The position numbers and the translations under genes are program-made. The notes beneath the pieces are model-generated. The model searched no databases. It worked only from the letters and a program-made list of their open reading frames with translations, and was not told where the DNA came from. 64,000 nt of DNA from an uncultured Acidobacteriia bacterium (lineage in GTDB: Bacteria > Acidobacteriota > Terriglobia > Bryobacterales > Bryobacteraceae): the NCBI GenBank assembly GCA_903828455.1, contig CAIKMJ010000022.1:62001-126000 (forward strand). Direction: 5' to 3'. Below, one piece after another: positions 18,118 through 49,120 of this stretch (its first letter is position 1; the number at the start of each line of letters is the position of its first letter).

Positions 18118-18312
18118 AAAGCTTTCAGCAGCACCGAGGCGCAGTATTTGGGAAGCCGGTGAAAATCCGGCACGGCCCCGCCACTGTAAGCGCCGAGAAT
18201 TTGTCCTGCGGTGAACCCTCCGGAACCCCGCAAAACAGCCACTGTCCCCCAACGGGATGGGAAGGCCGGGCAGATTCGATGACGCGCAAGTCAGGAGACC
18301 GGCCCCGGTGAT
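18118..18312 (+). promoter_or_regulatory. cobalamin (B12) riboswitch
   Basis: GGGAAGCCGGTGAAAATCCGGCACGGCCCCGCCACTGTAA (B12 box) and terminal AGTCAGGAGACCGG; immediately upstream of a TonB-dependent receptor. Confidence 0.95.
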
Positions 18313-18390
18313 TCCGGCTCATGCCCTCCCGGCATCGCGCGGAACCAATGCAAAAAGCGGAAAGGATGGCAGCCAGGGCTGCCTGAATAT

Positions 18391-46852: not shown

Positions 46853-47119
46853 ATGCGAGGCCAAACAGCAATCCGCACACTCACCATCCGTATTCCCGAG
46901 GGCAAGCACGAGCGCTTGCGCAATCTGGCGAAGGCCCGCGGCGTGAGCCTCAACCGCCTCATCGACGAACTCGCCACCGTCGCTCTGGCCGAATACGACA
47001 GCGAAACCCGTTTCCGCGCCATGGCCGCCCGCGGCTCCCGCCAGACCGGACTCGCCCTGCTCGAAAAGCTCGATCTCGAAAAGCTCGATCTTGAAAAGCT
47101 CGATCGCGCGTTTTCCTGA
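46853..47119 (+). CDS. ribbon-helix-helix/antitoxin-like DNA-binding protein with C-terminal LEKLD repeat
   Basis: RTLTIRIPEGKHERLRNLAKARGVSLNRLIDELATVALAEY; LEKLD x3 C-term. Confidence 0.78.
   Translation: MRGQTAIRTLTIRIPEGKHERLRNLAKARGVSLNRLIDELATVALAEYDSETRFRAMAARGSRQTGLALLEKLDLEKLDLEKLDRAFS
47060..47104 (+). repeat. 15-bp x3 in-frame tandem repeat
   Basis: ctcgaaaagctcgat x2, cttgaaaagctcgat. Confidence 0.96.
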
Positions 47120-47222
47120 TCTGCCCAACCCTCCGCGCGCGAGTCACAGCCGCTTTTTGCTGATTGCAAACGACTTCCGCACCTCACTCCGCGCCGTTGC
47201 GCTAAACTGCGGCCGGACCCAT

Positions 47223-47294
47223 GACTTCATCAAGGCGACTTCATCAAGGCGATTTCATCACGGCAAAACTGGCATCACGCCAAAACTGGCTTCG
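47223..47294. repeat. 14-bp x3 tandem repeat followed by 17-bp x2 tandem repeat
   Basis: gacttcatcaaggc x2, gatttcatcacggc; cggcaaaactggcatca | cgccaaaactggcttcg. Confidence 0.93.
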
Positions 47295-47525
47295 TTTTTT
47301 CAAATTGCCACGCGCGCGAATCGGCACACCTTCCGGCGGCAAAAACCGCGCCCGATTCGCCGCATTGTGTGGCTTTCTCGCCTCCGCTGCGCCCGCGGCT
47401 TGGGTTCGTTTTTTCAAATTCCTCCTCAACCCTCAGGATCGTGGCCGCATGACTACACTTCCGCGCCGATGTGTCGCATTTACGCCGCACTTCAGCCCGC
47501 CGGCTTGGGTTCGTTTTTTCAATTT
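47286..47525 (-). repeat. dispersed repeat AATTTGAAAAAACGAACCCA(AGC) x3
   Basis: Plus-strand cores cgttttttcaaatt at 47293 and 47407, cgttttttcaattt at 47512 (spacings 114 and 105 bp). Confidence 0.88.
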
Positions 47526-47662
47526 CCCGCCGCTTCTGCACCCGGTGTCGCACCCCGTGTCGAGTCCCGTGAGGCACCCCGCTGCCCCCGCCAATCCATA
47601 AAGCGATACTATGTTCCACAGACGGAACTCCGTCATCGGCACTTCACAATCGGCACTTCACC

Positions 47663-49120
47663 ATGCAACGACGCGACTTCATGAAAATCGCCGCCGCGGC
47701 CGCCGCCGCCGGCACCCGGCTCCCGGGCCAGCAAATGCAGATGCAGATGCAAACGCCCATGCAGTCCTTCCTCACCCCCTCCGGCCCGCAGGACATTGCC
47801 AAAACCGAGTTCAATCTCCAGATCGCCCCCGTCACCGTCGAACTGGCGCCCAACCGCATCGTCAGCACCGTCGGCTACAACGGCACCTCGCCTGGCCCGC
47901 GCCTGCGGATGAAGGAAGGCGTTCCCGTCACCGTCAACGTCGTCAATGACACGGACGTCCCCGAAACCGTCCACTTCCACGGCCTCCTTATCCCTTCCGA
48001 CGTCGATGGCTCCGAGGAAGAAGGCACCCCCGTCGTCCCCCCGCACGGCAAGCGCAGCTACACCTTCACCCCCACCCCCGCCGGCACCCGCTGGTACCAC
48101 ACCCACACCATGTCGATGGACGACCTCCATCGCGGCAGCTTCACCGGCCAGTTCGGCTTCCTCATCGTCGAAGGCGCCAACAACCCCGGCAATTACGACT
48201 CCGAACACTACCTCGCCCTCCGCGACTGGGAGCCCTACTTCACCAACCAGTCCATGGATAACGACGATCTCGACGCCAACGGCCCCCAGCCCGAGCGGCC
48301 CGCCACCATGGACACCCGCCCCGCCGGCATGGAAGTCGCCTCCGACATCTACTCCATCAACGACAAAGCCCTCGGGGCCGGCGAACCCATCCGCGTCAGC
48401 CAGGGCCAGCGCGTCATGTTCCACTTCCTGAACGCCAGCGCCATTGAGATCCGCCACATCGCCCTGCCCGGCCACCGCTTCAACGTCATTGCGCTCGACG
48501 GCAACCCCGTCCCCGTCCCCGCCGCCGTCGATGTCTTAATGCTCGGCCCCGGCGAACGCATCGATTGCTGGGTCGAAATGAATCATCCCGGCGTCTGGAT
48601 CATGGGCGCTCCCGAAGACGCCGTGCGCGAAGGCGGTCTCGGCATCGTCATCGAGTACGCCAATCAGCACCGCACCCCGCAATGGGTCGCCCCGCCCAAA
48701 TCCAGCTGGGACTACACTATCTTCGGCAAGCCGCCCTCCGGCCCCGCCCCCACCGAACACATCGACATGTTGTTTGAAAAGGTGCCGCGCGGCGCCGGCA
48801 AGTTCAACAGCTTTACCGTCAACGGCAAGCCCTATCCGCATGACGACGAATTTGTGCTGAAGCAGGGCACGCGCTACCGCCTTACCTTTCACAACCGCAC
48901 CGACGACTCGCACCCGATGCACCTGCATCGCCACCAGCTGGAAATCGCCGAAATCTACGGCAAACCAACCTCCGGCGTCATCAAGGACACCGTCGTCGTC
49001 CCCACCTACGGTCGCGCCAGCGTCGACTTCATCGCCGACCAGCCCGGCCTCACGCTCTTCCACTGCCACATCCAGCAGCACATGGACTACGGCTTCAAGG
49101 CAATGTTGCGCTACGCCTGA
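47663..49120 (+). CDS. multicopper oxidase with Tat-like signal
   Basis: HFHGLLIP, WYHTHTMS, HPMHLHRHQ, HCHIQQHMDYG copper ligands. Confidence 0.96.
   Translation: MQRRDFMKIAAAAAAAGTRLPGQQMQMQMQTPMQSFLTPSGPQDIAKTEFNLQIAPVTVELAPNRIVSTVGYNGTSPGPRLRMKEGVPVTVNVVNDTDVPETVHFHGLLIPSDVDGSEEEGTPVVPPHGKRSYTFTPTPAGTRWYHTHTMSMDDLHRGSFTGQFGFLIVEGANNPGNYDSEHYLALRDWEPYFTNQSMDNDDLDANGPQPERPATMDTRPAGMEVASDIYSINDKALGAGEPIRVSQGQRVMFHFLNASAIEIRHIALPGHRFNVIALDGNPVPVPAAVDVLMLGPGERIDCWVEMNHPGVWIMGAPEDAVREGGLGIVIEYANQHRTPQWVAPPKSSWDYTIFGKPPSGPAPTEHIDMLFEKVPRGAGKFNSFTVNGKPYPHDDEFVLKQGTRYRLTFHNRTDDSHPMHLHRHQLEIAEIYGKPTSGVIKDTVVVPTYGRASVDFIADQPGLTLFHCHIQQHMDYGFKAMLRYA

Follow-up and report, generated by a model that had tools for sequence, protein, structure and literature searches.

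A short DNA word kept almost letter-perfect in clusters and across a Bryobacterales genome: a candidate docking site for a DNA-binding protein

We examined the 543-bp gap that separates a HicB-like RHH gene from a multicopper oxidase gene in a 64,000-nucleotide stretch of DNA (the window), which is contained in a 4.4-Mb draft genome of 80 contigs (G000, here called the own genome; its taxonomy was deduced from relatives that carry names). The original prediction held that this gap lacks a convincing open reading frame, that it is dense in short repeats, and that it carries three minus-strand copies of a dispersed motif spaced 114 and 105 bp apart. All of this was borne out: a home-made codon-usage gene caller, which supplied all gene calls in this work, called zero genes in the gap, and the repeats and the three motif copies were located at the positions listed in Table 1. 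The threefold 14-mer repeat is separate from the dispersed motif. Two other features of the window may be recorded here. The 3′ end of the RHH gene (47060-47108) contains three 15-bp tandem repeats, CTCGAAAAGCTCGAT, which encode an LEKLD repeat, and the sole Rfam match in the window is a cobalamin riboswitch (RF00174; 94.7 bits; 18120-18321, plus strand).

Table 1. The motif-bearing gap, its parts and its flanking genes (window coordinates)
Feature	Position	Strand	Remarks
HicB-like RHH gene	46853-47119	+	Left neighbor of the gap; ends at 47119
Noncoding gap holding the motif cluster	47120-47662	.	543 bp, from the RHH gene to the multicopper oxidase gene
GA(C/T)TTCATCA(A/C)GGC x3	47223-47264	+	GACTTCATCAAGGC-type 14-mers; ordinary short tandem repeat
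CATCACG(G/C)CAAAACTGG x2	47256-47289	+	CATCACGGCAAAACTGG; short tandem repeat
Core copy 3 (minus-strand order)	47287-47304	-	TTTGAAAAAACGAAGCCA
Spacer, core copies 2-3	47305-47400	-	Diverged from spacer 1-2
Core copy 2	47401-47418	-	TTTGAAAAAACGAACCCA(AGCCG)
Spacer, core copies 1-2	47419-47505	-	Alignable to the spacer of copies 2-3
Core copy 1	47506-47522	-	(AA)TTGAAAAAACGAACCCA(AGCCG)
Degenerate GTGTCGCACCCCG-type repeat	47542-47581		Within the gap
ATCGGCACTTCAC(A/C) x2	47635-47662	+	Abuts the multicopper oxidase ATG
Multicopper oxidase gene	47663-49120	+	Right neighbor of the gap; ATG at 47663

With up to three mismatches allowed, the motif matched the 64-kb window 3 times (expectation, 0.24), a count not attained in any of 100 shuffles. 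The window cores are identical except at the C/G position, despite the diverged spacers between them, and core copy 1 begins with AATTG instead of TTTG at its 5′ end. The two spacers, although much diverged, are still recognizably homologous (z of 3.7; 0 of 500 mononucleotide shuffles). The cluster thus looks like an old tandem duplication of ca. 105 bp in which the spacers have drifted while the core was kept; three independent insertions at this locus are disfavored, given that the spacers appear to be a homologous remnant of that duplication.

The motif is by no means confined to this gap. GAAAAAACGAA(C/G)CCA occurs 75 times in the own genome, whereas its reversed control is absent; the core of this main form is GAAAAAACGAASCCA. 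Absence of the motif from the rest of the genome, which would have counted against the original prediction, is thereby contradicted. A second or sister form, GCACGTTCGAA(C/G)CCA, contributes approximately 20 further copies (searched as TTTGCACGTTCGAASCCA, it gave 22 matches with at most two mismatches and 0 in controls). The own genome holds about 75 to 100 copies in total. TTGAAAAAACGAANCCA was found as 37 exact and 21 one-mismatch matches (0 for the reversed control), and in all 58 of these the free position was C or G. The consensus may be written RATTTG(MAMRNN)CGAASCCA(AWTT). Direct reading of sequence covered 1.66 Mb from the own genome and ca. 0.4 Mb (399 kb) from one sister species, G009. 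Both forms fit TTTG-N6-CGAASCCA. In the former sample, the gap is six nucleotides in 31 cases, seven in 1 and five in none, and the most overrepresented 11-mers come from the motif (AAACGAACCCA, for example, was seen 25 times versus 0.36 expected). Another overrepresented word in this sample, GGCGACACGCTGGTG, is possibly coding. In an alignment of 71 A-form copies, information was confined to about RATTTG-CCA and the flanks were near background, with the logo collapsing outside ca. 20 bp. Of the original suggestion of a short interspersed element, therefore, the interspersed character stands, but there is no SINE-like body, the only sequence common to the copies being a core of 18 to 20 bp between nearly random flanks.

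Within arrays, this core is kept almost letter-perfect while the spacers drift. Three in-register arrays showed 6 changes in 255 core positions versus 75 in 587 spacer positions (P = 3e-7, which is optimistic because the units are related). The 1.66-Mb sample contained 32 exact cores versus 12 with a single mismatch, 8 of the latter falling at two tolerant positions that also vary in the C form. None of the single mismatches fell at C8, A10, A11, S12, C13, or C14 (numbered from G1), so that six of the eight letters in CGAASCCA were free of them. As a control, 30 scrambled 15-mers yielded 0 exact copies. Relaxing single motif positions in the 399-kb G009 sample added almost no copies. The near absence of one-step derivatives speaks against a decaying repeat, of which more such derivatives would be expected.

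Neighboring cores less than 600 bp apart lie head to tail in 51 cases and in opposite orientation in 2, whereas more distant neighbors are randomly oriented (6 versus 5). The periods of the clusters are many (21, 32/33, 37, 42, 62, 84 to 90, and 105 to 122 bp), and the flanking genes, as judged by eye, are convergent, divergent, or tandem without rule. At some loci (C61/C20, C3/C14, and L054/L106), the flanks around the core are 70 to 94% similar, which implies that longer segments have been copied. The cores on contigs C61, C20, C3, and C14 of the own genome, with flanks 90 to 94% similar, lie near contig ends; this suggests that the assembly was interrupted there by a longer repeat. Short tandem repeats numbered 1.1 per kb in 12 motif-bearing gaps versus 0.55 in 334 gaps, although the former are too few to support a conclusion. 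Several familiar explanations were considered and set aside. In a CRISPR array, the repeats are identical and the spacers are unique and about 30 bp long; here, the spacers within arrays are homologous and the periods range from 21 to 122 bp. Judged by eye only, the C form would suit a sigma-54 promoter (GG-N10-GC) on the opposite strand; the main A form, however, has no such GC, and the occurrence in arrays also argues against this reading. Viral contigs gave 6 single A-form matches, near the estimated chance level, and 0 C-form matches, and a phage or virus origin was rejected. So was a regulatory site conserved with the multicopper oxidase, since the orthologous loci examined in sister genomes carry no such motif cluster; nor do the hydrolase homologue loci examined there.

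A scan that took a single genome for each species and looked for pairs of cores at most 33 bp apart returned 18 stretches, 16 of them in Acidobacteriota metagenome-assembled genomes (MAGs), mostly Bryobacterales; the remaining two, from Lachnospiraceae, look like chance. In a survey of 257 genomes from the order, GAAAANNCGAASCCA showed strong enrichment in the own genus and in genera g33, g79, and g67, weaker enrichment in g19, g40, and g78, and control-level counts in most other genera. The highest count in any relative is 89, compared with 75 to 77 in the own genome, and controls in the sister species are near zero. The distribution is nevertheless patchy even within the genus: G000, G002, G004, G005, G007, G009, G011, G013, G015, and G016 are motif rich (as are g33, g79, and g67), while G003, G006, G012, G014, G017, and G018 are motif poor, several of the 19 genus members having only 0 to 6 matches. 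These members either do without the system or spell it in a form that can no longer be recognized. TTTGACGGAACGAASCCA (3 copies in G012) and TTTGGCCACACGAACCCA (G014 and G017) may be additional dialects of motif-poor species. Dialects at the NN positions are evident among the motif-rich species; the own genome has AA in 75 of 77 copies, G009 mainly AG, G011 mainly TC and AG, and G016 AA, TA, and AT.

In two samples from sister species, predicted genes contain 29 of 43 and 11 of 24 sites, with both strands and every frame represented. A GFVFS reading is shared by about half of the in-gene sites in the former set, partly in paralogous families, so that these are not all independent. The motif-poor members of the same genus argue against coding composition as an explanation for the in-gene sites, although GFVFS-type frames do account for about half of one set. 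At three orthologous places between species, the core was kept and the neighboring bases had changed. Furthermore, in two cases an in-gene site lines up ungapped with a motif-free homologue, which points to an origin by substitution rather than insertion.

A long asymmetric word that has fixed internal spacing, is conserved almost perfectly, occurs on both strands and within as well as outside genes, and comes in dialects shows the pattern of a DNA site that is read by a protein. We give about an even chance to the possibility that the motif is a chromosomal docking site for a sequence-specific DNA-binding protein, most likely a chromosome-organizing factor. The motif would then be a double-stranded recognition site, under purifying selection, for one candidate protein with many chromosomal targets. 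Clusters would presumably grow through local tandem duplication and be retained through cooperative binding at adjacent sites. Our guess is that such a protein might organize the chromosome, in the manner of Noc at NBS, SlmA at SBS, or MatP at matS (about one site per 60 kb), in preference to regulating the neighboring multicopper oxidase or HicB-like gene. Against a docking site stand the near absence of the motif from several members of the genus, the copying of longer segments implied by the similar flanks, the lack of a palindrome (unlike Noc sites), and the fact that 27 of 32 cores (84%) in the 1.66-Mb sample are intergenic, as expected of a gene-avoiding repeat; approximately 20% of this sequence is intergenic, although array members are not independent.

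These intergenic cores are equally what might be expected of the most serious rival, which we regard as clearly less probable than a docking site: a very small dispersed repeat, or the core of a nonautonomous mobile repeat, in which candidate machinery places copies of a unit of ca. 18 bp, or of larger mosaics, between genes, with subsequent tandem duplication giving rise to arrays. The many array periods and the homologous flanks at different loci also fit, as does a ca. 380-nucleotide interspersed repeat in a bog_105 MAG that contains paired cores. This repeat, present at L067, L069, L072, L074, and L084, is 70 to 88% identical between loci, carries its cores 37 to 38 bp apart along with conserved AAATATTCA...GTGAATTTTTCCC modules, and has no Rfam match. 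However, decayed copies are almost absent although the spacers are old and diverged, and the in-gene sites of sister species occur in every frame, the two that align ungapped to site-less homologues included. Nor is the classical REP machinery apparent. REPs are imperfect palindromes, and REPINs are inverted doublets linked to RAYT (PMC3116915). The motif resembles REP, REPIN, and BIME elements (PMC3116915) in being ca. 20 bp long, mostly extragenic in its own genome, and clustered. In place of a palindromic, foldable core, however, there is only a weak TTYG-N6-CGAA inverted repeat with a mean folding z near 0; 51 of 53 close neighbors are head to tail rather than inverted; and the RAYT gene (Y1_Tnp, PF01797) had 0 matches in the own genome and in three other genomes with the motif (G002, G009, and G013). 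On these grounds, we rejected a REP/RAYT repeat. Another system for comparison is the cyanobacterial small dispersed repeats (SDR), reportedly described by Elhai in 2008 (cited in PMC3116915) as very short units in intergenic DNA; the motif shares the small size, the dispersal, and the intergenic setting, but its nearly all-or-none core and the in-gene sister sites argue against insertion.

By analogy with DUS and USS, which promote uptake through a minor pilin receptor, the motif might also be a tag by which self-DNA is recognized during uptake, read by a competence pilin and spelled in species dialects, although we think this rather improbable. Species dialects, sites both in and out of genes, and the patchy family distribution are in its favor. 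So are two inverted core pairs in sister species (G011:C807:2357-2388, starts 2357/2374, and G009:C93:70189-70225, starts 70189/70211; 2 and 7 bp apart, respectively), which would fold into terminator-like hairpins like those of paired uptake sequences; such pairs are typical of DUS at terminators (PMC3630211). Indeed, like the DUS of Neisseriaceae (PMC3630211), the motif is a short fixed word that occurs on both strands, inside and outside genes, with occasional inverted pairs and with species dialects that vary at one or two positions. But whereas DUS and USS number hundreds to thousands per genome, and DUS thousands (PMC3630211), the motif reaches only about 90 copies, has 13 to 18 defined positions, and forms head-to-tail intergenic arrays, and relaxing single positions in the sister sample recovered almost nothing more. 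In a broader form, the idea is that the motif might be a lineage-specific DNA “password” with species dialects by which cells or a chromosome-bound machine recognize their own chromosome, either as an uptake tag or as a new chromosome-organizing code with a coevolving reader; this we consider possible but on the unlikely side. To our knowledge, such a system would be unlike any in Acidobacteriota.

Still less probable is that the copies are neutral relics, produced by tandem duplication and segment copying from a sequence that is young by chance. In favor, the cluster in the window is a tandem duplication that has diverged, and gaps of this kind often hold short tandem repeats, but neutrality is already disfavored by the core-spacer test, and the fixed spacing, the strict C/G position, and the family-wide recurrence of the word also run counter to it. 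We can all but dismiss a structured or multimodule RNA, as originally suggested, or a small repeat protein (FEKTNPS/NLKKRTQ): although the 21- and 42-bp periods of a few arrays preserve one frame, the 37-, 32-, 89-, and 85-bp periods break any frame; over 71 copies the mean folding z showed no excess (+0.16 downstream, +0.15 upstream, and +0.05 antisense); and there was no Rfam match at an E value of ≤1. The original prediction was right that conservation lies in the nucleotides and not in one frame.

Our literature search found no paper containing the core sequence or the FEKTNP peptide; in the passages of the Solibacter genome paper that were consulted, many short repeats are reported, the present motif not among them. 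The Bryobacterales belong to a phylum with few genetic tools, hence the value of a comparative handle, and the motif, with its sister dialects and patchy distribution, offers one toward a reader protein and its function. Short words that are letter-perfect throughout a genome are often handles of uptake, recombination, segregation, or division. MatP, for example, is a single DNA-binding protein whose matS sites are strongly conserved and number in the tens per chromosome. Chromosome sites of the Noc, SlmA, and MatP type are spread unevenly with respect to the origin or terminus. Noc of Bacillus subtilis has about 70 binding sites (NBS) per chromosome (PMC4331003). The NBS are palindromic, unlike the motif, which is asymmetric and clustered. 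Nevertheless, like the NBS (PMC4331003) and the SlmA sites, the motif comprises tens of strongly conserved sites, and as far as can be judged from sequence, both its number and its conservation fit this class.
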